Assembly (NCBI GenBank): GCA_027065695.1
Contig: JAMONP010000056.1
Span: 52,501 to 89,499, forward strand
Direction: 5' to 3'
DNA from: Desulfuromonadales bacterium
GTDB taxonomy: Bacteria; Desulfobacterota; Desulfuromonadia; Desulfuromonadales; BM103
Length of the DNA: 36,999 nucleotides
Made by a program: the position numbers and the translations under genes. The notes below the pieces were generated by a model. It searched no databases and was not told where the DNA came from. It worked only from the letters and a program-made list of their open reading frames with translations. Below, in pieces: positions 23,960 through 36,611 of the stretch. The stretch's first letter is position 1. The number at the start of each line of letters is the position of its first letter.

Positions 23960-26900
23960 TCATTGGTTAATCCACTTTGCTGCCTCACGAACCGATTGCT
24001 GATCAAATTTGGCACGGAAGCGCATGTAGGCACCCTGGGCAGTGTAACTGGCTGATGAGAAATCATCATCTTCAAAGCCGACAAGATTGTAGCCTAGACT
24101 GACCCAGATGTTGGTTACCGGTGAGTAGCCGACATCTGCCCCGGCGCTGTATTCGAATGTGTCACTGTTCCACGAATGCAGCACACTGCCATGCACGCCA
24201 ATATCCCAGCGTTTATTGATGTTGTAACGCGACTCGAAAGCAATCAGGTCGGTATAGCCGCTGTACGTTCTACCATCAAAATTATCTCGAACGTATTTCA
24301 CGCCGTAGTAGAACGACATCTGTAGTTTTCGATTGAGACGTAAGTTGGCATGCAGGTTGTTAACGATGCGCCAGTTGTTGTATTCCGTAGTGCTGTGATC
24401 CTCGCGGTCGAAGTAAAAATCGAGACGATGAAGGAGAATCCAGCGACTTTCTGTTGGACGATAGGCTATACCCATCCTGATATTACCATCCGTACGTCGC
24501 ACACCATTCGACACCTCGGAGATGAATGCGAGCGCCTTGGCTGCAACAGCAATACCATCCTGAGGTTCCACCACGATGTTAGTGCTGACTCCGTACCTGT
24601 CCTCATTATCGGCCTGGCGGGTTTCGAGACGGTTCCACCATGTCCATTTCTCTTTGCGATAGGTTGAACCGATGGACACCGAGGTAAAATCGTCGTCACT
24701 ACCCTGGGCGGCCGGTACATTATTGTTAAATTGATAATCTTGGTTAGATTTGATCGTGTAGCTGCGATCAAGAGATGCATCCACACTCCAGCTCTCATTG
24801 ATACGCCAGTTCTGGCCGAGACCAAAAATTGCAAAAACCCGCTGGCCATTTTCATTCATTTGTCTCTCAACCGTTGTGCGAATATCGCCGCCCTGCCACG
24901 GGGTAGCATTGAAGCCGAGACGGGTTCCTTCGGTGTTTTCCTTCTTACCCCAGGTAAATTCCTGCTCGGCAAACGCGCTGATCCATGGATTGATCTGGTA
25001 ATCGAGCCCCAGGATCGTGCGAGTCGGGTAGTCAACGTTCTTGTTTCTGCTGTTGAGCGATTGTTCGTGATCGGCGCGAAGATTCAGCTTGGTGTTGGCA
25101 CTAATCCAGTTTCCTCCTGCCAGAATTTGTTCACTACGCATGGTTGAACCTCTGCCCAAACGATCCTGCGCATGCCGGAAACCGCCATGGAGGCCGTAGC
25201 GCTCGGCCTGGTAGCTGGCAGCCAATTCGCCCACATCCCGTTTGTTGTCGCTGCTCATCACATCTTCATGATAAGCAAGGCCAGCCACTGAGAACTTAGG
25301 AGTGAGGTGGTAGAGGGCTTCTGCGCCGTACTTGCGAGTTCCACTTTCGCTGATATTCTGCTGACCAAGGCCGAAATGCTTGCCCTGTTCTTTGTAGTAG
25401 ACACGTGTTTTGATGCGATTGGCATCATGGCTGATCTCGGCCAGGTAAGCGTCGTCGGTCTCATCTTCGTCGTAGAATTCGTTTTTCGTTCTGGCGGCTT
25501 CGAGGTGCATAGTTGTTTGTGGTGTTAATTTGATGGTGGCGTCGGTCCCGTAAAGGTCGCCTTTGCCTGAGCCGCGTTCCTCGTGCACATAGCTGGCCCC
25601 AACTTCGATTTTCTGATCGAGCATCTTTACAGCTGCTCGACCGCCATAATTGAAGTTCTCATCCTTGGAATCAAAGGTCTCATAGCGCACGACAATGAAA
25701 GTTGGATTGAACTTGTCATCCTTACTCGGTACCGGTCGTTTAAAGAAGAGACTGCCATTATTATAGTCAATGTCGTAGTCGATGTGACGTTGCAAGGTCT
25801 GGGTGTCGATAATGACCTCGCTGCGGAAACGGTCGCGAGTCTCCAGGGTTACTTGCTCGGAGTTGATAACCAGATCTTTTTGCGTCAGGTAGTAGCGTCC
25901 TGAGGTGCCATCACCACGGATTTCATCCTTGATAAAGGCTTGCCTGGTGTCGGCAGCGAACATGGTGTAACTGAAGTTGTACGCCTGCATCTCCGATTTG
26001 AAGCCGCTCATGCTGCGGTTATAGCGGGAGAGCTCGGTTTGCGACAGTCCGGTATTCATGTCGCCGAACAGCGCGTAGAACTGTTCGCGCTCCAACTTGA
26101 TAAAGAGCTTGTGGGCGCTTGACGCCTCGTAGCCCTGGTAGGTGCCGTCTCCGTAGAGGGGATAGTAGGTGTCGGGATCGATGCTCTGGTAGAGGCTATC
26201 GCCATCTCGGTTCGTTTTGTCGGAGTCGTAGGCTACGGTCAATAGCCAATCACCCTTGATGGCACCTTTGGCGAAGAACTTTACCTTGCCATCATCATAG
26301 TAGTGCTCGTCTATGCCTGCTTCTTCGAGACTGACTTCATTGCCAGAGAAGGTGTTGTAGCCGAGGGTGCCTTCGGCGAAGCCGACCATAACCCAGTCGC
26401 GTGGGGCGGGTTGGAGCCATACCGGAATTTCTGCAAGGCCGTCTTCAAGGGGCAAGGTCAGCAGGGCTTCACCACTCTGTGGAGTTGGAGCCAAAAGGAT
26501 TCGGGCAATACCATCAGCGCCAATCCTGAATTTGGGTCGACCTTGTTCCGTAATCTCAGTATCAGTCTCGGCCATATCGAAGTAAGGACTGTATGGTGGA
26601 GTGACATCGAATTCTCCAAACATACCGGCACTGATCGGGTAGCCGTCACGATCAGTGAAACGGATCGCAATCACTGGCGGAGTGCGGCCATCGGCCAGCA
26701 ACTGTGATTGCTCGGGGAGAAATTCTGCAAAAGCTGGAGCGTAGGAGTAATGGACTATCTGAGTAATACGGTCCACTGTTTTTCCTTGAGCGTCAGTCAC
26801 TTGCAGCTCAAATTGATTGTCACCATCCTGGATGCCAATACCACGCCATTGGGTCAATGCCACGGTGCCTGCCGAGTTGACCATTGTCCCCTCAAAAGAG

Positions 26901-29899
26901 AGAGGACTGACTGCTTCGCCATCCTGGGTAAGAGTCAATTTTTGTCCTGGCGTGTGCTTGATAACAACCCTGATACTTGGAATGTCTGGAACGGAACCCT
27001 CTATTGGCCAAAGCCATTCGAGTCCAGCTTCTGCATGAGCGAGCCAGATTTCGTCATATTCGGGTTGCTCTTCGGACAATTCCGCATTAATGGGGATGAG
27101 GTTTTCGGCTCCAGGTTGCATACCCATGGTTGCTGCTGATTGTGGTCCACTATGATCTTTAACCAGGTCAAGAACCAAGTCACGATCAATTTTCTCGCCT
27201 TCGATGCGTATCTCAACCCGACGATTCAGGCTACGCCCAGCCTCAGTCGTATTGTCAGCCACTGGCTCTGTATCAGCCAGACCGGTCACCACGATCTCAG
27301 CAGGGGGCAGGTTTAGCTTGTCGCCAAGATAGCGGGCCACTATTTTGGCACGTGCCGAAGAGAGCTCATAGTTGTTAGCAAAAACATTGCGGCTGCGTGG
27401 AGTAATCTGCGTATTGTCGGTGTGCCCGATTACATAGAGTCGGTTGATTTTGTAATCCTGTAACTGCTCGGCAAGTTGATCGAAGAAAACCTTGTCGGCA
27501 GCAGAAAGTTCGGTAACAAAAATTGGGAAGTTGGGACGAACCTCAAAACGTGTGATTGGTGTGCGGGATTCCTCAATTTTTACCAGGAGCAGATTCTCAG
27601 CCATCGGCGTCCGCTGGTTTTTTTGTCCGGGTGCGTCAAAAGTTAGAACTGCCTTGGTCGGTAGTTCACCGAAGCCCTCGGTAGCTACCTGTGTCTGCAG
27701 GATGATTTCACCTTGCCAGCCAGCCTGTTGGCTATCGAGACGATAGGTCAGTACCGGCCCCCGTGTCTCCGGGTCGGGTGTGGCTTGGCCATTGAGTGTG
27801 CTTTGTCCGGGCTGGTAAGTGAGTCCTTGCGGCAGAATAACGCTAAGACGCAGATTCTCCAAGTTGACACCACCCACATTAATTGGCACGCGGAAGGTCG
27901 CACGTTCGCCAGAGAGTGAACCGGACAGTTCGATACTCACTTTTCCACGTGGCTTCGGTTTGAGATCGACATAGAAGTCGGCACGCCAGATGGTGCCTCC
28001 CTGCAAGTCGACGAATTGGGAGAAAGAGCGTCCGGCGAACTGGCTATTGTCTTCGCACGGCAGGACCTCATAAGCCGCTGGAACGGTGTCAAGATCAAGT
28101 TGTACGACGTGGATGCCCGGTTCGACACCTTCATAATGATAGCTGCCGTCGTTGTCAGTGATTACGTAGCTGCCATCTTCCAGGTAGATGCGGGCATTGG
28201 CCAAACCTTCCTTTTCGGTATCCGGGCTTTCACAAGCACCGATCATGACCCGGCCAAGGATAAAGGCCTGGTTACTGAGGAAATCATCTCTGACGACGAC
28301 TCTGGCGGTTGCCAGGTTCGAGGTTGTGCCGATCACATCTTGGGCGATGGCACGGTTGATTGCATCGCCGGTCTTTGCTCCGGCAGCGACTTCGACCACG
28401 TAGGTAAGCGTGACGTTCTGGCCAGCAGGGATGTCACCCAGGGTCATACTGAGGGCCCGACCATCTCTTGAGACGACCGGGTTGTCGGCTTTGCTGCCAT
28501 TGATCTCTAAAGAATCTTTCTGGTAATGGAAGCCGGTCGGCAGGTGGTCGTCGATTGTCACATCTGTTGCGATCCCGGAGCTGTTCAGGTTCTCCAGGGC
28601 TAGGGTGTATTGCAGGAAGTCGCCAATGGCGACAACCGCATGAGTGCTTTCTTTGCTCAGCCACAATCCAGATGCTGCAGGATCCGCAGGAATATCGACC
28701 CGGATGATCGGACCCGGGTTGATAGGAAAACCTCCGGCGAAGGAGGCTTGATCATCGATAGCGTACTGACTGCCGAATCGGTCGCGCAGGACATCCGCAG
28801 GAATTTGTGATGGTGTCCCGTATCCTGCAGGCGGCAGCACATCAAGTCGGTAGGTTCGACCCGGTTGAATGAGTGGAAAACGATAACCGCCGGTCGGAAA
28901 ACCGAAACTTGTATCACCGCTGGTGACCGTCGATGGATAACCGGGACTGCCGTCATCATAGAAGACCGTCGCCGGCTGTCCGGAGGTGACGTCGAACAGC
29001 GAGACCAGAGCACCGTCAACAGGTGCGCCACTGGCACTGTCGAAGACGAAACCGTAAGGGTCAATCAGGATATCGTCAAGCGATTCATCCTGGCTATCAC
29101 CCGTGTCGACGTAGTAGGCGTCGAGTGTACTGTTAGGTAAGATAGACAATATGCCGTTGCGCAAAACCTGGTTGCCAGATTCGGAGAGGACGTAACCAAG
29201 GAAAGCGCCGCTGTCGATGTCATCTTCGGTCAATAGCAGCAGCTCGTCATCACCGGTCTCCACAGAGGAGATTCTTATCAGAACCGTCTCACGTACTGTC
29301 GGGTCAATGTTCTGGTCCTGGTCCTCAAAGCTGATGTAGAAGGGGCTGCCGGCATGGTACTCCTTGGCCTTGATCAACGGCAGGGTATCCGGCATGCCGC
29401 TTGGCCCGACCGCTTGGAAAGGTGCCGGACTGGTCAAGTCGCCGCTGGTGCTGTAGGCGGTTGCCGGTACCGAAAGGGTTTGGCTCCCGGGCGGGTTTGT
29501 CGGCGCATACTGCAGGAACGTGATGGTTGACGGGGTCCGCTGCACCACAGTGGTGATGCTGACCAGGTTAGAGGTTGCAGTGTTTGTACTGTTGAAGGTT
29601 GCGGTTGCGATATTGTCGATCTGGGTGCCGGCAGGCGTTGCCGCAAAAGCGGCAAACGGCATGGCCAGCATCAACAGTGAAACGCAAAGGGTAAAGATAG
29701 ATCGGCTGAAACGACTCCGGCTTGGAGGTGGTGAAGTCGTCTCATTTGTGACGGCAGGCTGTCGTTCGCAACAGCCCGCCGCCTGCCCGATATATTCTGA
29801 AACATGGATGGTCGAGACGAACCTCTCCCCCACCCCGGCAGGGTTGCCGGAGTTTCTGGACGGCCTGAAGGCCGGGATGAGGGAAAGCAGTCTATGCAT
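23960..29899 (-). CDS. Giant DUF11/OmpA/beta-barrel outer-membrane protein
   Basis: 1979 residues. The order of parts is: an N-terminal leader; a signal-peptide-like segment at about 62-86 ending AAFA-ATPAG; an AGTxIxN motif; a first DUF11 domain at about 425-545; an SdrD B-like or carboxypeptidase-regulatory repeat (ITDNDGSYHYEGVEPG); a second DUF11-like domain; and an OmpA C-terminal domain at about 795-905 with HTDN, LSSARA and NRRVEI for peptidoglycan binding. After a further beta-rich part, the last 800 residues are aromatic, alternating beta strands of an outer-membrane barrel (from about WVMVGFAEG at 1166). The chain ends in a short helical tail (SVREAAKWINQ) rather than a terminal aromatic strand. 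It is the last gene of the five-gene operon. The ATG at 29899 has AAGGAA 12 nt upstream and is the only start that leaves the signal segment intact. Confidence 0.88.
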   Translation of the reverse strand: MHRLLSLIPAFRPSRNSGNPAGVGERFVSTIHVSEYIGQAAGCCERQPAVTNETTSPPPSRSRFSRSIFTLCVSLLMLAMPFAAFAATPAGTQIDNIATATFNSTNTATSNLVSITTVVQRTPSTITFLQYAPTNPPGSQTLSVPATAYSTSGDLTSPAPFQAVGPSGMPDTLPLIKAKEYHAGSPFYISFEDQDQNIDPTVRETVLIRISSVETGDDELLLLTEDDIDSGAFLGYVLSESGNQVLRNGILSILPNSTLDAYYVDTGDSQDESLDDILIDPYGFVFDSASGAPVDGALVSLFDVTSGQPATVFYDDGSPGYPSTVTSGDTSFGFPTGGYRFPLIQPGRTYRLDVLPPAGYGTPSQIPADVLRDRFGSQYAIDDQASFAGGFPINPGPIIRVDIPADPAASGLWLSKESTHAVVAIGDFLQYTLALENLNSSGIATDVTIDDHLPTGFHYQKDSLEINGSKADNPVVSRDGRALSMTLGDIPAGQNVTLTYVVEVAAGAKTGDAINRAIAQDVIGTTSNLATARVVVRDDFLSNQAFILGRVMIGACESPDTEKEGLANARIYLEDGSYVITDNDGSYHYEGVEPGIHVVQLDLDTVPAAYEVLPCEDNSQFAGRSFSQFVDLQGGTIWRADFYVDLKPKPRGKVSIELSGSLSGERATFRVPINVGGVNLENLRLSVILPQGLTYQPGQSTLNGQATPDPETRGPVLTYRLDSQQAGWQGEIILQTQVATEGFGELPTKAVLTFDAPGQKNQRTPMAENLLLVKIEESRTPITRFEVRPNFPIFVTELSAADKVFFDQLAEQLQDYKINRLYVIGHTDNTQITPRSRNVFANNYELSSARAKIVARYLGDKLNLPPAEIVVTGLADTEPVADNTTEAGRSLNRRVEIRIEGEKIDRDLVLDLVKDHSGPQSAATMGMQPGAENLIPINAELSEEQPEYDEIWLAHAEAGLEWLWPIEGSVPDIPSIRVVIKHTPGQKLTLTQDGEAVSPLSFEGTMVNSAGTVALTQWRGIGIQDGDNQFELQVTDAQGKTVDRITQIVHYSYAPAFAEFLPEQSQLLADGRTPPVIAIRFTDRDGYPISAGMFGEFDVTPPYSPYFDMAETDTEITEQGRPKFRIGADGIARILLAPTPQSGEALLTLPLEDGLAEIPVWLQPAPRDWVMVGFAEGTLGYNTFSGNEVSLEEAGIDEHYYDDGKVKFFAKGAIKGDWLLTVAYDSDKTNRDGDSLYQSIDPDTYYPLYGDGTYQGYEASSAHKLFIKLEREQFYALFGDMNTGLSQTELSRYNRSMSGFKSEMQAYNFSYTMFAADTRQAFIKDEIRGDGTSGRYYLTQKDLVINSEQVTLETRDRFRSEVIIDTQTLQRHIDYDIDYNNGSLFFKRPVPSKDDKFNPTFIVVRYETFDSKDENFNYGGRAAVKMLDQKIEVGASYVHEERGSGKGDLYGTDATIKLTPQTTMHLEAARTKNEFYDEDETDDAYLAEISHDANRIKTRVYYKEQGKHFGLGQQNISESGTRKYGAEALYHLTPKFSVAGLAYHEDVMSSDNKRDVGELAASYQAERYGLHGGFRHAQDRLGRGSTMRSEQILAGGNWISANTKLNLRADHEQSLNSRNKNVDYPTRTILGLDYQINPWISAFAEQEFTWGKKENTEGTRLGFNATPWQGGDIRTTVERQMNENGQRVFAIFGLGQNWRINESWSVDASLDRSYTIKSNQDYQFNNNVPAAQGSDDDFTSVSIGSTYRKEKWTWWNRLETRQADNEDRYGVSTNIVVEPQDGIAVAAKALAFISEVSNGVRRTDGNIRMGIAYRPTESRWILLHRLDFYFDREDHSTTEYNNWRIVNNLHANLRLNRKLQMSFYYGVKYVRDNFDGRTYSGYTDLIAFESRYNINKRWDIGVHGSVLHSWNSDTFEYSAGADVGYSPVTNIWVSLGYNLVGFEDDDFSSASYTAQGAYMRFRAKFDQQSVREAAKWINQ

Positions 29900-29935: not shown

Positions 29936-30979
29936 TTAATCGATAGTGACTTCGAAGCTGACTGTTTCTGTTGCACCGGTTGCAATTGTGGCGATAGTGC
30001 AGCGGATGTCGGTCACGGTAGCCGCAGCCGGTTCTGGTGTTTCCCAGGTTGCCTGGCTGTCAGTCGACCATTCCGGTGCGCCGTTGCAACTGGTAATCCT
30101 CACGTAGGTGGTCTGCGACGGGATCGAATCGGTGACGACGACGCTGGTTGCCGCAAAGACCGTGTCTCCATTGGTTACATCGATGTCGTAGGTTACGGTG
30201 TCGCCCGGGAGGTGGTAGCCCGAGGTGCCGTCAGTGGCGGTCTTGGCGACGCCGAGAGTTGCCAGGGTGGTGAAGATGCCGCTGTCCGAATGGAAGCCGT
30301 TGAGAGCAATGTCACCAGTTGCGGTGCCGGTGTCGTCGGCGAAGACGATCTCAGCGATTGTCGAGTCATTGCCGTCACTATCGGCAGCCAGCGGAGTGCC
30401 GCCGGAATCCGCTGCCGTGGCAATCAGACTGTAGGTCACAGTGTTGCCGCCTACGCCAGTATCGGTGGCGTCACCATTGCCGTTGGAGGTCGGTGTGTCA
30501 CCGACAATCAGGAACAGGGCGCTGTTGGAGCCGCTGACGTTGCTGATCTGTACCGGATTTGTGACCAGGGTATCCCCTGTATCGTAAGTGCCGTTGCCGT
30601 TGACATCGTTGTAGATGTGTATGTCGGTCATGGTAAAGTTGTTCTGGGCCGTGACTTCAGAGCTGAGGTTGAAGTACTCGGAACCGGCTGCGCTGTTGCC
30701 TTCGTTGGTGACGGTGAAAGGCAGGGCAAAGCCAGCGACTCCGGCGACCACATTGTTGTCACTGTTGTTGGTGACGATCGGCCGCACCTTGGTGTCTACT
30801 GCGAAGGTCTCGATGTTACTGGGGGTGGTCGTGGTGGTGCCGCCGATGGTAAACTCGACATTCGCCTGGTTGGAGATGGTCTGATCATCGGCGGTGCCGA
30901 GTGCCCAGACTGTGCTGGTGCTGAGTAGTACCATTGACGTAGCGATAAAAATCGCCAGCAGATTGATTCGTCTTCTCAT
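29936..30979 (-). CDS. Exported DUF11-type surface protein
   Basis: 347 residues from the ATG at 30979, chosen over an upstream frame because of its ribosome binding site (AGGAGAAATAATC) and a clean signal peptide (MRRRINLLAIFIATSMVLL to STVWA). The mature protein begins with TISNQANVEF, then beta-sandwich sequence with an EF-hand-like loop (DVNGNGTYDTGD), and ends in a DUF11 domain (PGDTVTYDIDVTN) whose final strand FEVTID is the C-terminus. DUF11 domains are Ig-like modules typical of large surface or adhesive proteins. It is fourth in the operon, with 36 bp to the giant gene and 150 bp after the gene at 31130. Confidence 0.85.
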   Translation of the reverse strand: MRRRINLLAIFIATSMVLLSTSTVWALGTADDQTISNQANVEFTIGGTTTTTPSNIETFAVDTKVRPIVTNNSDNNVVAGVAGFALPFTVTNEGNSAAGSEYFNLSSEVTAQNNFTMTDIHIYNDVNGNGTYDTGDTLVTNPVQISNVSGSNSALFLIVGDTPTSNGNGDATDTGVGGNTVTYSLIATAADSGGTPLAADSDGNDSTIAEIVFADDTGTATGDIALNGFHSDSGIFTTLATLGVAKTATDGTSGYHLPGDTVTYDIDVTNGDTVFAATSVVVTDSIPSQTTYVRITSCNGAPEWSTDSQATWETPEPAAATVTDIRCTIATIATGATETVSFEVTID

Positions 30980-31129
30980 GATTATTTCTCCTCTTTTGCT
31001 GTTTACAGTTTGCACTGGATCTGATAGACCAGAACTGGGGTTAATGTTTCTCCTTCTGTTTCCATCCATGTCGATAGCCTTCTTTGCGGTTTTCTTGCTT
31101 TGCGAACGTAATTATTTAGTCAGGTCTGG

Positions 31130-31654
31130 TTATTTGACCTGGGCCTGGAATTCAACCTGCTTGGTGACTCCTGCTGGCAGGGGGGGGCTGAACAACCAAC
31201 GAATATCGGTGTAGTCGGCCGGGGTAGCTGGCCGAGGTTTACCATCATCGCCGAGTACTTGCAGACGTTCGGGGCGGTCGAAATTCACGCCCCCGTTGAC
31301 CGAGAAGGTGATGGCGGTTTTTTCTGCAGTGGCCGCACTACTGACAAACAGCATGCTCGCCGGAATTGGATTGCTGACAGCGACGTTCTCTGCGGCACTG
31401 TCACTGTTGTTGGTAACGGTATTGACGAAGATCACCGTGTCGCCGGGCAGAACTTTGCTTGCCGGGATTCGCTGCACAACCAGACGGCCATCCTCAGTAG
31501 CAACCTTTGTTTCCACTACAGCTTGGGTGACGATGCTGACCGGACTGTCCTCTGCGGCGGCCAAGGTTACGCCCTGGAACAGCAGCGACATGGCCAGAAG
31601 TGTGAGCATCAGCCTTGTCGGCTGCGCTTGTGTAAAACGGATCGTTCGATTCAT
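31130..31654 (-). CDS. Small exported single-DUF11 protein
   Basis: 174 residues. A signal peptide (to LAAA, about residue 34) is followed by one DUF11-like domain: PGDTVIFVNTVTNNSD, NPIPASMLFV, then FSVNGG and DYTDIRWLF, ending in VEFQAQVK. Small proteins of this pattern are widespread in proteobacteria and unassigned in function. Its ribosome binding site GGAGG directly follows the TAG stop of the preceding gene (11-bp gap), so it is translationally tied to it. Confidence 0.85.
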   Translation of the reverse strand: MNRTIRFTQAQPTRLMLTLLAMSLLFQGVTLAAAEDSPVSIVTQAVVETKVATEDGRLVVQRIPASKVLPGDTVIFVNTVTNNSDSAAENVAVSNPIPASMLFVSSAATAEKTAITFSVNGGVNFDRPERLQVLGDDGKPRPATPADYTDIRWLFSPPLPAGVTKQVEFQAQVK

Positions 31655-31665
31655 ATTGATTCCTC

Positions 31666-32658
31666 CTAGTCGATGGTCACCTGGAAGGTGAGGGTTCGGG
31701 TTGTATTGGTCAGGTCACCAAGGTTGTAGGTGACAGCAAATTTTTCTGAATCGACCTGGTTCTCAATGAAGGTGCCTTCATCGGCGTCAACCGGGTCGGT
31801 GAGTGTCTTTGTGGTGCTGCCATCGAACAGGGTCATGCTGCCCGGCAGGTAAGTGGTGTATGCTGGAATCTGGTCACTTACGACCAGGCTAGTGGTGGTG
31901 CCTGTCACCTCAACCAGCACTGAATAGGTCAGGATGGCACCGGTGACCGGTTGGTCGCCGCCATCGGGGTCGTCGATCTTAACCGACTTGTTCAAGGTGA
32001 CCGTAGACTTGGTGATTTCATAGATACCGTTATCGCTTGCTCGGGCACCACTCGCACCGATGATCGCATGTGGATCGCCGGGAGATGCTGGCGGGAATAC
32101 TGTGCCCGGAGCGCCGCTGCCGGTCTCTGCGGCGGCGATTAAACGGCTGATCCCCAGGTCACCATCATTTTGTCCGCTAGGGATATCGTTGAAAACGAAC
32201 AGGTTAATGACATGGTCAGCTTCAAGAGTCGGCAGGTTGGTACTCGAATCGAATGGCTGGTCGATCCCCGGGTTGTAGCTGCCGTTGCCATTGGTGTCGA
32301 GGTAGATTGTCGGACTTTGTGGGTCAAGCTGGTCCCCGGAGATGGCATTGTCGATGGTAAGGTTGAAGGCTTCTGTACTGTTGCCGGTGTTGGCAAGCAG
32401 GAACGTGAGCATCTGGCCGGTGTCGCCCTCATGAACAATAATGTTGTTGGCATCCTGCCAGGTTAGAGTGAGGTCGAGGATCTCATTTACGGTAAAAGTC
32501 GCCAGGTTACTTAGCTTGTTAACTGGATTACCGTTGAGCATGGCGCTGACCTGTGCCTGGTTGGTGATCACTGTGCCGGCCGTAACGCCAACTGCCAGCA
32601 CGCTGGCGGGAAGTGCCAGGAGCAGTAGAGTACAGAGTATGATCAGGTGTCGTTTCAT
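31666..32658 (-). CDS. Exported DUF11-type surface protein
   Basis: 330 residues. The signal peptide ends in ASVLA, and the mature part starts AVGVTAGTVITNQAQV, the same N-terminal pattern as the gene at 29936 and the giant protein. A calcium-loop-like motif (DTNGNGSYNPGID) lies in the middle. The C-terminal DUF11 domain (VTGAILTYSVLVEVTG) ends with FQVTID as the last residues. No sortase motif or membrane anchor is seen. It lies between the first gene of the operon (15 bp) and the next (11 bp). Confidence 0.86.
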   Translation of the reverse strand: MKRHLIILCTLLLLALPASVLAVGVTAGTVITNQAQVSAMLNGNPVNKLSNLATFTVNEILDLTLTWQDANNIIVHEGDTGQMLTFLLANTGNSTEAFNLTIDNAISGDQLDPQSPTIYLDTNGNGSYNPGIDQPFDSSTNLPTLEADHVINLFVFNDIPSGQNDGDLGISRLIAAAETGSGAPGTVFPPASPGDPHAIIGASGARASDNGIYEITKSTVTLNKSVKIDDPDGGDQPVTGAILTYSVLVEVTGTTTSLVVSDQIPAYTTYLPGSMTLFDGSTTKTLTDPVDADEGTFIENQVDSEKFAVTYNLGDLTNTTRTLTFQVTID

Positions 32659-32673
32659 CTAAATGATCTGCCT

Positions 32674-34524
32674 CTATTGGATCCTCACCTTAAAGGTGAC
32701 AGTGAAACTGCTCGACGCGTTCATGGAGCCGGTTGGTACAAAACGGATATGGGTAACGCTGCTGTCTATCCCGGTACCGCCGTCGGTTGGCTGATAGCTG
32801 AAGTCACTGCCATCAGTTGAAAATTCCACATGGTCAGTGTTGTTATCGATAGTGATGTAATTCAGGGTCAGGCCGGTTGTTGCCGGGTTGGTCACAGTGA
32901 CCGCCGGTTCGGTTACTACCAGGTCAGTATTAGCCGGGACCGGGTCGGTCAGGATGATCGTATCGTTGTCAATGGCACGTGAGTCGAAGTTGTTGACGAT
33001 CAAGGTATAGCGGACGATCTCCCCCGGGATGTCGTAGCCGGTTGTGCCGATGTTTTGGGCCATCTTCACCAGAGTTACATTTGGTGGGATGGTGATTTCA
33101 AGAGTGTAATCCTCGACTTCACCGTTAGTTGCAGTGCCGCCTGGGGTAGCAGTTGTGATTGCGGCGTCGGTGGTCAAGCGGAACCGCGCGTAGGTTGTGC
33201 CACCGGGCAACCCTGAAAGGCCGCTCCAGGTCAAGGTTGTGCTGCCGTTTACGGTGCCGGTCGGGACATTTAGTGATGTACCTTCTGCGTTGTCAAAGAC
33301 GCCGTTGCCGTTGAAATCGATCCAGCCGAGCAGCTGGGCGCTGCTACCGGTAGTGTTGTTGACCGTTACGTCCACCGAATAACTGCTGTCCGTGGTGGAT
33401 AAGGGTGGGAAGCTACCAACCCCATCTTCATCGTCAGTGTCTGTGGTGTCGTCGCCGTCGGCAGTTGCTGTCGGTTGCCCGGTTACTTCGTTGTCCGGCA
33501 GAATGGCCCCGAGGAAGATGTTGTTGCTGATACCGTGGCGCGGCCCGCCGCTGGCGGTCAAAGTGCGATAGCTGTCGGGTGCGTCGCCGAAATCAAAACC
33601 GGGCATGGTGCCGGAGCTGAAGATCAGGTGGAAGAAGACGGCCGAGTCCCATAGTCGGTCACCGGCATCGGCGATAGCCGCTTTAACGTGGTAGCTTTGG
33701 CCGGGGACGACGTTGATTGACTGGTAAATATAGTTGGTCCAGCCGTCGAGCTCCAGATTGCTGTTGGTGGTGGCGACGGTGGCGTTGCCGCCGTTTAGAT
33801 TACCGTTGCTGTTGTCGGTGTAGTAGGCACTGTTGCTGAGGCTACCACACCGTGCTGCCGTGCCGTTAACCCCGATCACACCAGTGTTGACCCAGTTAAT
33901 GGAGGTCCGGTCGCCGCCCGGAGTTTTGGCAAAGTTTTCCGCATTGTTGGAATAAGGGCCCTTGATGCCTGGACCGCTGACGAAAATACCGGTGACATCA
34001 TTGTAGGCGGTGCAGACGTATTCCGGGAATTCATCCGAACCGAACTGGAACGGAATTGTCATGATCGGTAAAGTTGGAATAATGTCAAACTCTATGGCTA
34101 TGTATTCGCCGTTGGAGGTCTGACTTTCAAGCAGCATCATGTCGGCGTCGGTGACATTACCGCAGAGGGTATTTGTCCAGTTGGTCTGGTTGTTTGGAGA
34201 AACCATTGGGTCGGCTGGTTTGAGTGGGCCGGTGCTGAGAACGACTCCGCTGGGGTCACCGAGAACCGGTCCCGGTCCGGTCGGAGTCGTCCCCTGGCTG
34301 AACAGGCCGACTGCCTGGGTACGGTTAGCGCAACCGTTATTGACGATCACCATGTTACTGATGGTTACTCCTGCTCCTTGTAACGCAGCGGTGATCTGTG
34401 CGGTTGTCACGCCATCATTGGCGACGTCGTTGATGACAATGGCTTGAGATGTGGTCGGCGTCAAGACAAGGGTGAATGTCAGCAGAACCAGCAGCATTGA
34501 ATTGGTTAGATTTTTATATTTCAT
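32674..34524 (-). CDS. Choice-of-anchor L / GEVEDY / DUF11 exported protein
   Basis: 616 residues and the first gene of the operon. A signal peptide (to TSQA, residue 28) is followed by a choice-of-anchor L-type domain with the segment FQFGSDEFPEYVC and paired cysteines. A beta domain with FDFGDAPDSY and the calcium-loop-like WIDFNGNGVFD ends in GEVEDYTLEI, the signature of the GEVEDY domain. A DUF11 domain (PGEIVRYTLIVNN) finishes with FKVRIQ. These modules occur in large exported proteins. No known enzyme motif is present. Its leader of roughly 400 nt carries a GEMM-I riboswitch and an intrinsic terminator. Confidence 0.88.
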   Translation of the reverse strand: MKYKNLTNSMLLVLLTFTLVLTPTTSQAIVINDVANDGVTTAQITAALQGAGVTISNMVIVNNGCANRTQAVGLFSQGTTPTGPGPVLGDPSGVVLSTGPLKPADPMVSPNNQTNWTNTLCGNVTDADMMLLESQTSNGEYIAIEFDIIPTLPIMTIPFQFGSDEFPEYVCTAYNDVTGIFVSGPGIKGPYSNNAENFAKTPGGDRTSINWVNTGVIGVNGTAARCGSLSNSAYYTDNSNGNLNGGNATVATTNSNLELDGWTNYIYQSINVVPGQSYHVKAAIADAGDRLWDSAVFFHLIFSSGTMPGFDFGDAPDSYRTLTASGGPRHGISNNIFLGAILPDNEVTGQPTATADGDDTTDTDDEDGVGSFPPLSTTDSSYSVDVTVNNTTGSSAQLLGWIDFNGNGVFDNAEGTSLNVPTGTVNGSTTLTWSGLSGLPGGTTYARFRLTTDAAITTATPGGTATNGEVEDYTLEITIPPNVTLVKMAQNIGTTGYDIPGEIVRYTLIVNNFDSRAIDNDTIILTDPVPANTDLVVTEPAVTVTNPATTGLTLNYITIDNNTDHVEFSTDGSDFSYQPTDGGTGIDSSVTHIRFVPTGSMNASSSFTVTFKVRIQ

Positions 34525-34640: not shown

Positions 34641-34683
34641 TTAAATAAAAAAAGCACCCGATTTCCTGGCTGAAATTGGGTGC
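34641..34683 (-). terminator. Riboswitch-controlled intrinsic terminator (attenuator)
   Basis: A 12-bp stem (GCACCCAATTTC and GAAATCGGGTGC in minus-strand order, one wobble) with a 6-nt loop, followed by TTTTTTTATTT. It lies between the riboswitch and the coding region, about 120 nt before the first gene. It is thus placed to stop transcription according to the aptamer state. Two direct copies of GTCCAGAC (plus-strand 34690-34697 and 34718-34725) lie between it and the aptamer. Confidence 0.8.
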
Positions 34684-34732
34684 CTATTGGTCCAGACCGT
34701 GGAGTCTTGCCGCGTTTGTCCAGACTTTTCGT

Positions 34733-34832
34733 CCCTCTTCGGCGGCTAGACTGACCGTAATAGTCTATAATTACGGCCCCTTGGCTCTGCGTCACCAGGT
34801 CTCCCTGGTTTTGCTCTTGTCGGAGAAGTTCA
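34733..34832 (-). ncRNA. GEMM-I cyclic dinucleotide riboswitch (probably GEMM-Ib, cGAMP-type)
   Basis: Read on the minus strand, ACAAGAGCAAAACC begins the aptamer. It is followed by a hairpin ACCAGG-GAGA-CCTGGT with a GNRA tetraloop, then the conserved GACGCAGAGCCA, and a third helix CCGTAAT/ATTACGG. The chain closes with GGTCAGTCTAGCCGCCGAAG. These are the landmarks of GEMM-I. Compared with the V. cholerae Vc2 aptamer (AGGGCAAACC), the equivalent here is AGAGCAAAACC. So the base aligned with G20, which contacts the ligand, is A. GEMM-I riboswitches with A at this site in Geobacter bind 3',3'-cGAMP. The first helix is imperfect (CUUC/GAAG plus mismatches), as often in this class. It lies in the leader of the DUF11/OmpA operon. 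Confidence 0.85.
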
Positions 34833-34936
34833 ATACAGTTTTTTCTTGATAATAACTTTTATCCCCTTGTTCGACCTGTAAGAAATTTGCAGCTTTGCAG
34901 TTACTACCCTGCATCTTTTGCATTTGTTGTGCCTTA

Positions 34937-34974: not shown

Positions 34975-34993
34975 AGGGTTTGCTGATAAATAC
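34975..34993 (+). repeat. Left terminal inverted repeat of the IS
   Basis: AGGGTTTGCTGATAAATAC matches the inverse of 36646-36665 at 11 of the first 12 positions. Confidence 0.75.
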
Positions 34994-35096
34994 GCAACCT
35001 GTTGAAAACATTAGACAAAGTTCGTTCTTTTGTGCTAATATGTGCAAGGAAAACAGGTGGTTAGCTTTAAAACCCTTGCACATAGGTGGTCAAAAA

Positions 35097-36611
35097 ATGT
35101 ATCGAACGACACCTGACAATCAATTGGCCTTTGAAGACTTCTACCTGCCTTTCGGTGGCAAGCTCAGGAGCGATAACCGCTGGGTTCTCCTGGCGCGTAT
35201 GGTTCCTTGGGACACCGCCGAGGCCTTTTATGAAAAACAGTTTGCTCAAAGCGGTCAAGGTGCTCCGGCCAAGCCTGCTCGTGTTGCTCTTGGCGCCCTG
35301 ATCATCAAGGAGCGCCTTGGTGTCAGCGATGAAGAAGCGGTGGAGCAGATTCGTGAGAACCCATATCTGCAATACTTTCTCGGGTTCCATGAATTCCGCG
35401 ACGAGGCACCGTTCGATTCGTCAATGTTTGTTCATTTCCGCCATCGCTTCAACCTGGATCAACTCAACCAGATCAATGAAGCGCTTGTCCGTGCCGAGCA
35501 AACAGAAGCCAAGCGTGATGATGAACCACCTCCCGAAGATGATGATTCGGATGGGAACACATCTTCAAAGAGCAACAACGGTAAACTGATTGTCGATGCG
35601 ACCTGCACTCCCGCTGACATCCGTTATCCAACTGACATCAGCTTGCTCAACGAAGCCCGAGAGAAGAGTGAGCAAATCATCGATATTCTTTTCGAGCCGC
35701 TGAAAGGTCAGCAACGCAAGCCGCGTACCTATCGAAAAAAAGCGCGTCGCCTGTTTTTGGCGTACAGCAAAAGTCGCAAGCGTTCAACACGGCAGATTCG
35801 TAAAGTCCTGGGTCAACAGTTGCGTTTTCTCAAACGTAACCTCAATACCATTGGACAACTTGCCGACCAGACGTCGCTTACCCTGCTTGATCGCCGTCAA
35901 TACAAGAACCTGCTGGTGATTCAGGAACTTTATCGCCAACAACAGTGGATGTATGAGAATCGCTGCCGTCGGATCAGCGGTCGGATTGTCAGTATCAGCC
36001 AACCACACGTCCGTCCGATTGTTCGCGGCAAAGCGTCTGCACCGACGGAATTCGGTGCCAAACTCTCAGCGAGCCTAGTCAATGGTTCCGTGTTTCTGGA
36101 TCGTCTTGACTGGGATCCTTTTAACGAGTCCGGTGATCTTATTGAGCAGATCAAAACCTATAAACAACGCTTCGGCTTCTATCCGGAATCAGTGCATTGC
36201 GATGCTATCTACCGAACACGTGATAACCGGCGGTTTTGCAAAAAATACGACATCAGAATGTCTGGGCCACCCTTGGGGCGTCCTCCGAAGAAAACCCCCG
36301 AGAACACGCAAGAACTGCGTAATAAAAAGCTCCAACAGCGCCAAGATGAACTTGACCGGATTCCCATTGAAGGGAAGTTTGGTCAGAGTAAACGCCGCTT
36401 CAGTTTGAACCGGGTCATGACCAAACTGGATGATACCAGTGAAACAGCCATCGCCATCGTCTTCATCGTAATGAATCTGGAGAAGTGGCTGCAAAAGCTT
36501 CTTTTTACTCTTTTATGGCGCTTGCGGCTATCGACAAAGTGGTCCTTACATGTCCTGCATACTTTTATGGGCCGTCTATTGTTGACCGGTCGCTCGTATT
36601 CGTTGGGTTGA
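35097..36611 (+). CDS. DDE transposase (DUF772/DDE_Tnp_1 type)
   Basis: 504 residues from the ATG at 35097 (AGGTGG about 8 nt upstream), opening MYRTTPDNQLAFEDFYLPFGGK. The N-terminal DUF772-type domain contains GALIIKERLGVSDEE and NPYLQYFLG. The catalytic triad is visible as D in IVDATCTPADIRYP, D in VHCDAIYRTRDNR and E in IEGKFGQSKRRF. No frameshift interrupts it, so the element may be active. A longer frame from 34980 would start inside the terminal repeat and is not preferred. The final 40 residues after MNLEKW are weakly conserved. Confidence 0.93.
   Translation: MYRTTPDNQLAFEDFYLPFGGKLRSDNRWVLLARMVPWDTAEAFYEKQFAQSGQGAPAKPARVALGALIIKERLGVSDEEAVEQIRENPYLQYFLGFHEFRDEAPFDSSMFVHFRHRFNLDQLNQINEALVRAEQTEAKRDDEPPPEDDDSDGNTSSKSNNGKLIVDATCTPADIRYPTDISLLNEAREKSEQIIDILFEPLKGQQRKPRTYRKKARRLFLAYSKSRKRSTRQIRKVLGQQLRFLKRNLNTIGQLADQTSLTLLDRRQYKNLLVIQELYRQQQWMYENRCRRISGRIVSISQPHVRPIVRGKASAPTEFGAKLSASLVNGSVFLDRLDWDPFNESGDLIEQIKTYKQRFGFYPESVHCDAIYRTRDNRRFCKKYDIRMSGPPLGRPPKKTPENTQELRNKKLQQRQDELDRIPIEGKFGQSKRRFSLNRVMTKLDDTSETAIAIVFIVMNLEKWLQKLLFTLLWRLRLSTKWSLHVLHTFMGRLLLTGRSYSLG

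Follow-up and report, generated by a model that had tools for sequence, protein, structure and literature searches.

What does the leader RNA upstream of a surface-protein operon in a Desulfuromonadales bacterium sense, and in which direction does it act on the operon? A preliminary description of the 36,999-nucleotide stretch analysed here (the window) assigned a minus-strand leader to the GEMM-I riboswitches and noted A at the ligand-specificity position. On this basis, the leader was equated with the GEMM-Ib riboswitches of Geobacter, and 3',3'-cGAMP was proposed as the ligand. The base at position 20 is the rule by which cGAMP riboswitches are called, so ligands may be mis-assigned where A20 stands together with G48 and a c-di-GMP-like P2. 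Furthermore, the characterised cGAMP riboswitches are described as activating genes (PMC6456294; PMC9262584), and a predicted repression of surface-protein genes would widen the reach of cGAMP.

A GEMM-I aptamer with A20 and G48

A covariance search, which had been proposed as a check, was run with cmscan on the whole window and gave a significant match to RF01051 (c-di-GMP-I, GEMM-I) at positions 34825–34738 of the minus strand, with a score of 49.3 bits (E = 7.3e-7) against a gathering cut-off of 35 bits. The match spanned 87 of the 87 model positions and was the sole Rfam match at the gathering threshold in the window. With P1 included, the aptamer covers positions 34734–34829 (minus strand); its score of 78.6 bits with our own model R1 is not independent, since the 25 GEMM-I copies from which that model was built include this one. 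The tetraloop-capped P2 hairpin and the other landmarks of the preliminary description were all present. At the level of sequence, these results confirmed the aptamer, at the coordinates given earlier, as a real GEMM-I member that is predicted to bind a cyclic dinucleotide.

The Vc2 numbering was transferred to the alignment by our own mapping. In the model, the counterpart of Vc2 G20 is an unpaired position just 5' of the GC at the P2 base; it is A in the window copy (34815, minus strand), in agreement with the earlier reading of the specificity position. Position 47 is A (34788), and position 92, the Watson–Crick contact to the ligand, is C (34742, minus strand). Position 48, a ligand-recognition position that is normally A, as in the Rfam consensus, is G in the window copy (34787, minus strand; local stretch GACGCAGAGCC). 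In a structural survey, G20, C92, A47 and A48 are named as key ligand-recognition nucleotides (PMC3764141). The base of P2 is G-C/C-G (5' GC, 3' GC). Thus the window copy has the full-length fold of RF01051, with its P3, C92, tetraloop-capped P2 hairpin and G-C/C-G P2 base, but differs from it in A20 and G48.

The host genome (3.39 Mb, 108 contigs) contains four GEMM-I copies, with A20 in the window copy and the contig 60 copy and G20 in the copies on contigs 14 and 89. GEMM-I was found in 22 of the 22 family genomes searched, with 2 to 38 matches each. The contig 60 copy (L147:7882–7971) is a second one with A20 and G48. Its platform was called OFF-type, and it precedes an ORF of 961 aa with YadA head repeats, cut by the contig end and also of a surface adhesin type.

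The orphan variant c-di-GMP-I-GGC (RF03167) shares the GEMM-I scaffold, and it was the family kept in short searches for the window copy (47.3 bits) and the contig 60 copy (55.7 bits). Both scores, however, lie below the cut-off of 59, and both copies have A20/A47 in place of the consensus G20/G47, where we read the GGC of the name as positions 20/47/92. Membership of the window copy in this variant is scarcely credible, and it was rejected.

The pocket differs from that of Geobacter-like A20 copies

The A20 riboswitches of Geobacter are described as cGAMP ON switches (PMC6456294; PMC9262584), and the Hypr domain structure reported in PMC6456294 comes from G. metallireducens. The fragment of the GacA construct 6d9m found its best genome matches in G157 (94%) and G156 (88%), and these two genomes together with G160 and G161 are probably Geobacter-like. 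A search of these genomes with RF01051 yielded 66 matches; 30 loci were fetched and contained 47 model matches, 40 of them distinct. All 29 A20 copies sampled had A48 and the P2 base 5' CU, with 3' GG opposite in all 28 distinct A20 aptamers. Moreover, 28 of the 29 copies were called ON-type, and the remaining one was without a terminator.

The window copy shares with the GEMM-Ib riboswitches of Geobacter (pgcA, pilM and Gm0970) the A20 and a genome with Hypr GGDEF enzymes. It differs from the A20 copies of the Geobacter-like genomes, which stood in for the pgcA, pilM and Gm0970 RNA sequences themselves, in having G48 rather than A48, a G-C/C-G rather than a C-G/U-G P2 base (GC/GC instead of 5' CU/3' GG), a terminator apart from the aptamer 3' end, and different target genes. 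The equation with Geobacter GEMM-Ib was thus not supported at position 48 and the P2 base, and by its sequence the window switch is not of the standard Geobacter type. A20 alone is therefore no proof of a cGAMP-selective switch here.

G48 accompanies A20 across the family and class

To sample the family, 80 further regions were taken from the best-scoring rows of a family-wide GEMM-I listing and searched, together with the earlier loci, with R1. This gave 145 matches, of which 137 were distinct; the set consists of best-scoring listed rows plus operon loci, is not random and contains related copies. Positions 20/47/48/92 were G/A/A/C in 84 copies, A/A/A/C in 30, A/A/G/C in 14, G/A/A/T in 8 and G/A/G/C in a single copy (L262), where a gap hides A20. 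After L262 was reassigned, G48 was present in 15 of the 45 A20 copies vs. none of the 92 G20 copies, and all 15 G48 copies had A20; as the copies are related, the Fisher value for this association is not a fair probability. The coupling of G48 to A20 suggests a tuning of the pocket.

In a class-wide pattern search of 277 genomes, 75 of the 84 tested A20–G48 matches showed P2 hairpin support, defined as at least 5 of 6 P2 pairs and a GNNA loop and applied to the 31-nt matches of the list. The supported sites lie in 39 of the 277 genomes. The nine matches that failed the hairpin rule include the operon copy of G012, which was nonetheless recognised by the model. The G20–G48 pattern matched in 66 of the 277 genomes, and none of the 30 loci fetched contained GEMM-I; three of the 71 strings in the list could close as a hairpin, one of them in the fetched locus L320, without GEMM-I.

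The P2 base 5' GC/3' GC is present in the window copy and in 14 of 15 A20–G48 copies from the family and operon loci, as well as in all 19 A20–G48 copies of the overlapping pattern set. Among the family and operon loci, it is also found in 25 of 30 A20–A48 copies and in 54 of 92 G20 copies, being the commonest type in the latter. Three A20 copies with a CC/GG P2 base, all called ON-type (L204:597–682, L234:937–1032 and L265:597–692), were observed in the window's own family, where they are a third A20 background.

These data bear on a promiscuous or mainly c-di-GMP sensor, in which A20 within a c-di-GMP-like P2 would add cGAMP binding and keep c-di-GMP binding. The P2 type shared with most G20 copies is consistent with it, as is the A20-type aptamer of Desulfobacca acetoxidans, which is described as having gained affinity for cGAMP at the cost of perhaps no more than a slight loss of c-di-GMP affinity (PMC9481103). 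That aptamer, known to us by description, is like the window copy a non-Geobacter case of A at the specificity position, but it lies in tandem with an AdoCbl riboswitch (PMC9481103). In addition, a protonated adenine allows cGAMP riboswitches to bind c-di-GMP, and selectivity is altered by mutations in the lower P2 (both as cited in PMC9262584). However, A20 is kept at 12 of 12 single-copy operon loci while G20 is commoner overall (92 of the 137 copies sampled), and the pocket tuning suggested by G48 also argues against a promiscuous sensor, which we consider unlikely.

The genome encodes Hypr-type GGDEF proteins

Diguanylate cyclases carry Asp at the selectivity position of the GGDEF domain. 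Of 11 GGDEF matches in the host genome, three (L011, L012 and L015) have Ser there. L011 is a REC-GGDEF protein of 471 aa whose best PDB match is 6d9m, the Geobacter Hypr GacA construct (6e-52), and 6d9m is also the best PDB match of L012. L015 has a GGDDF motif like that described for GSU1937 (PMC8835794); no motif was found in L013 with the pattern used. Three Hypr-type GGDEF proteins, predicted makers of cGAMP, are thus encoded, and because of them cGAMP is the likeliest ligand, though the aptamer may select poorly or bind something else.

Ser-type relatives of L011 (E < 1e-49) were present in 18 of 20 genomes chosen for the locus or for A20–G48 sites. The Ser-type relative in G007 has a stop codon inside the match, and G013 (71% complete) has another Ser-type protein in its place. 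As the GacA fragment was matched in 250 of the 277 genomes of the class (E 1e-45, counted without comparison of residues), the presence of Hypr proteins says little. In G095 (85% complete), a hairpin-supported A20–G48 site was observed, yet the best Hypr-domain match is Asp-type.

The aptamer precedes a conserved surface-protein operon

Five genes follow the leader on the minus strand: gene 1 (32674–34524; 616 aa, choice-of-anchor L and GEVED domains, mosaic), gene 2 (31666–32658; 330 aa, a DUF11-type repeat below its cut-off), gene 3 (31130–31654; 174 aa, DUF11), gene 4 (29936–31069; 377 aa, a DUF11-type repeat) and gene 5 (23960–29899; 1979 aa, DUF11 and OmpA domains). The domain matches of the five proteins bear out the surface-protein operon proposed earlier, and no cytochrome or pilus family was among them. 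Long relatives of gene 5 occur elsewhere in the order, and 117 of 136 genomes have a match, many of them sharing just a part of it, such as the OmpA domain. The intermediate genes have a similar order and size in several relatives.

The region upstream of the last-gene relative, or of a related first gene, was then scanned in 24 genomes. GEMM-I was found in 15 of them, the window's included (E 2e-22 or better), and was not found in G128, G103, G100, G087, G084, G104, G134, G023 and G047, the stretches of G087, G134 and G100 being short. In 12 of the 15 genomes, the single GEMM-I copy of the fetched stretch has A20, with G48 in 11 of the 12 and A48 in G130. The riboswitch locus is conserved, as judged from this distribution. 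Because the copies adjoining the operon are G20 in G022, G101 and G135, the ligand at the locus is not fixed; G022 and G135 also have A20 further upstream. G20 copies stood in place of A20 at the same operon in L182 and, in tandem, in L173 and L186. Two of these loci, L173 and L182, also have an A20 copy before a separate gene of ~466 aa that looks response-regulator-like by eye.

A sigma-54-type -24/-12 element, GGCACAACAAATGC (34920–34933, minus strand), conforms to the motif GGCAYN6TGC and would place the transcription start near 34909. In 11 of the 12 operon copies, the window included and G024 being the one without it, the motif begins 73–125 nt before the aptamer. As controls, 137 other GEMM-I copies contained it in 9 cases and 9500 random windows of 200 nt in 122. 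In the window alone it is weak, with 2 matches vs. 3.4 expected by chance. The conservation of the element at the operon copies supports a predicted sigma-54-type promoter before the riboswitch. A sigma-70 promoter at ~34960–34930 (TATAAT with a 19-nt spacer) was also considered as the main promoter and rejected; unlike the -24/-12 element, its TATAAT was not seen at this position in relatives.

Relatives have a predicted OFF-type platform

An intrinsic terminator with a U-tract was identified by folding at 34647–34685 (minus strand), with a stem at 34685–34652, a U-tract at 34653–34647 and a free energy of -16.8 to -17.9 kcal/mol. The strong terminator of the preliminary description is thus present, but not directly downstream as was claimed, since it begins ~48–50 nt after the aptamer. 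It was not listed by a simple consensus scan, probably because of an internal mismatch.

Expression platforms were called by a partition-function test with a threshold that we set. In relatives, transcripts cut before the 3' arm had the terminator 5' arm paired with CCGAAG at the aptamer 3' end and with the sequence immediately following the aptamer. By this test, 10 of the 12 operon copies were OFF-type (Cd1-like), while G024 had no terminator by the criteria used and the window terminator was unpaired with the aptamer. The A20–G48 platforms (n = 28) comprised 18 OFF, 7 ON, 1 unlinked (the window) and 2 without a terminator; the A20–A48 platforms 20 OFF, 7 ON, 3 unlinked and 0 without a terminator; and the G20 platforms 33 OFF, 32 ON, 15 unlinked, 11 without a terminator and one too short. 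When the terminator 5' arm and loop were shuffled, pairing was expected in 5.5 of the 19 A20–G48 copies with a separate terminator vs. 18 observed, and in 9.4 of 48 G20 copies vs. 33 observed. For A20–A48, 20 were seen vs. 10.1 expected of 23, so that the excess is modest. When the aptamer was forced, with just four pairs in P1, the pairing of the terminator 5' arm fell only in part in G016 (0.78 to 0.69), G014 (0.80 to 0.68) and G012 (0.67 to 0.59), with larger drops in G022a (0.79 to 0.27) and G020 (0.72 to 0.41). The same method called the Geobacter-like A20 copies ON, in agreement with the Geobacter experiments as described (PMC6456294; PMC9262584). The folding model predicts that ligand turns the operon OFF in most relatives.

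This layout matches the OFF layout described for Cd1 (PMC9262584), the c-di-GMP OFF riboswitch of Clostridioides difficile. Both have an antiterminator made of the aptamer 3' strand and the terminator 5' arm, and ligand should favour termination in Cd1 and, as predicted, in the relatives. The two differ in G20 in Cd1 vs. A20 here, and the window copy is without the aptamer–terminator pairing.

With the platforms in hand, we could weigh the reading of the leader as a cGAMP riboswitch of the Geobacter GEMM-Ib type, which would attenuate the operon as it does the exoelectrogenesis genes and most likely act as an ON switch. The A20, the terminator and the Hypr enzymes are all present, the characterised Geobacter switches are of the ON type, and 7 of the 28 A20–G48 copies were called ON. 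However, position 48 and the P2 base are unlike those of the 29 Geobacter-like A20 copies, the aptamer 3' end lies outside the terminator, contrary to our criterion for the ON type, 10 of the 12 operon platforms were called OFF, and no electron-transfer family was among the operon protein matches. A Geobacter-type switch is accordingly quite improbable at this locus.

The platform and first gene are probably replaced in the window

The window leader falls outside both platform types. Pairing of its aptamer 3' strand with the terminator 5' arm, as in the Cd1-type OFF layout, was 0.00, and the terminator 5' arm is not made from the aptamer 3' strand, as it is in the ON type. In folds, the aptamer 3' strand AGUCUAGCCGC (34742–34752, minus strand) can pair with GCGGCAAGACU (34703–34713, minus strand; also found by duplex search) instead of forming the aptamer. 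The resulting helix, 34752–34742/34713–34703, has -23.0 kcal/mol, a weak result in that 2.5% of 2000 shuffles were as good. In folds of the window leader, no way was found for this helix to block the terminator, and folding and duplex search gave no convincing antiterminator. Strands of the aptamer can form gapped duplexes with the terminator 5' arm of up to -13.3 kcal/mol, a value without shuffle control. No other Rfam family was found in the leader.

The stretch from the aptamer end to the start codon was matched in its own genome only (1 of 136), with no match in the 135 other genomes of the order. Furthermore, residues 14–482 of gene 1 share 67% identity with a protein from a Zetaproteobacteria assembly, and residues 466–616 share 78% with the end of the first gene of G013, which has 2125 residues. 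The first genes at the other 11 single-A20 loci have 932–2125 residues, vs. 616 in the window. No GEMM-I was found in 22 kb around the related Zetaproteobacteria gene (L057). The likeliest history is that the platform and the front of the gene were replaced while the promoter and aptamer were kept. The window switch may have become uncoupled, or it may follow a rule that we did not find, and regulation in this genome may be weakened or lost.

The best joint explanation, to which we give a probability of about 0.55, combines a sigma-54-type promoter, an A20–G48 GEMM-I aptamer most likely for cGAMP, OFF control in relatives and a replaced platform in the window. The promoter would drive a leader RNA consisting of the aptamer and the intrinsic terminator, followed by the five-gene operon. 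The aptamer would most likely bind 3',3'-cGAMP made by the Hypr GGDEF enzymes, and possibly some c-di-GMP. In relatives, the 3' strand (CCGAAG...) of the free aptamer is predicted from folding to pair with the terminator 5' arm and prevent termination; on ligand binding, the strand would be held in P1, the terminator freed and the operon switched off. In the window, promoter and aptamer would have been kept and platform and first gene replaced, with the aptamer–terminator pairing gone and the aptamer 3' strand able to pair with 34713–34703 instead.

A stronger statement, compatible with this joint explanation, is that the window leader is an uncoupled remnant, its aptamer intact and its terminator forming with or without ligand. 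The missing aptamer–terminator pairing, a leader unique among 136 genomes, the mosaic first gene and the IS5-family transposase gene upstream point to such a remnant, whereas the intact promoter element, aptamer and pocket positions speak for continued function. The alternative helix, moreover, would break up the aptamer fold and could act as a new switch, and the gapped duplexes offer the terminator 5' arm other partners in the aptamer. On balance, complete uncoupling appears somewhat unlikely.

Extending the joint explanation beyond the operon, A20–G48 GEMM-I may be a separate pocket variant across the class, which would reach its selectivity, for cGAMP or another nucleotide, by a route other than that of Geobacter GEMM-Ib and would often be of the OFF type. 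Upstream of this operon, it would join sigma-54 control to repression of giant surface-protein genes at high ligand, with some loci handed to c-di-GMP (G20). We put this forward tentatively, at less than even odds. A limited literature search found neither a position-48 GEMM-I variant nor a cGAMP OFF riboswitch.

The IS5-family transposase gene (34980–36611) lies upstream of the leader on the opposite strand, and the sigma-54 element is located between it and the aptamer. No terminal inverted repeats or ends of an IS element were found, and a second copy of the region was not found elsewhere in the genome. In six relatives (L184, L175, L169, L185, L171 and L174), a structured stretch that looks conserved by eye was observed between the terminator and the start codon, consisting of GACCAAAUUUGGC...UUUGGUC and a CACC/GGUG hairpin.
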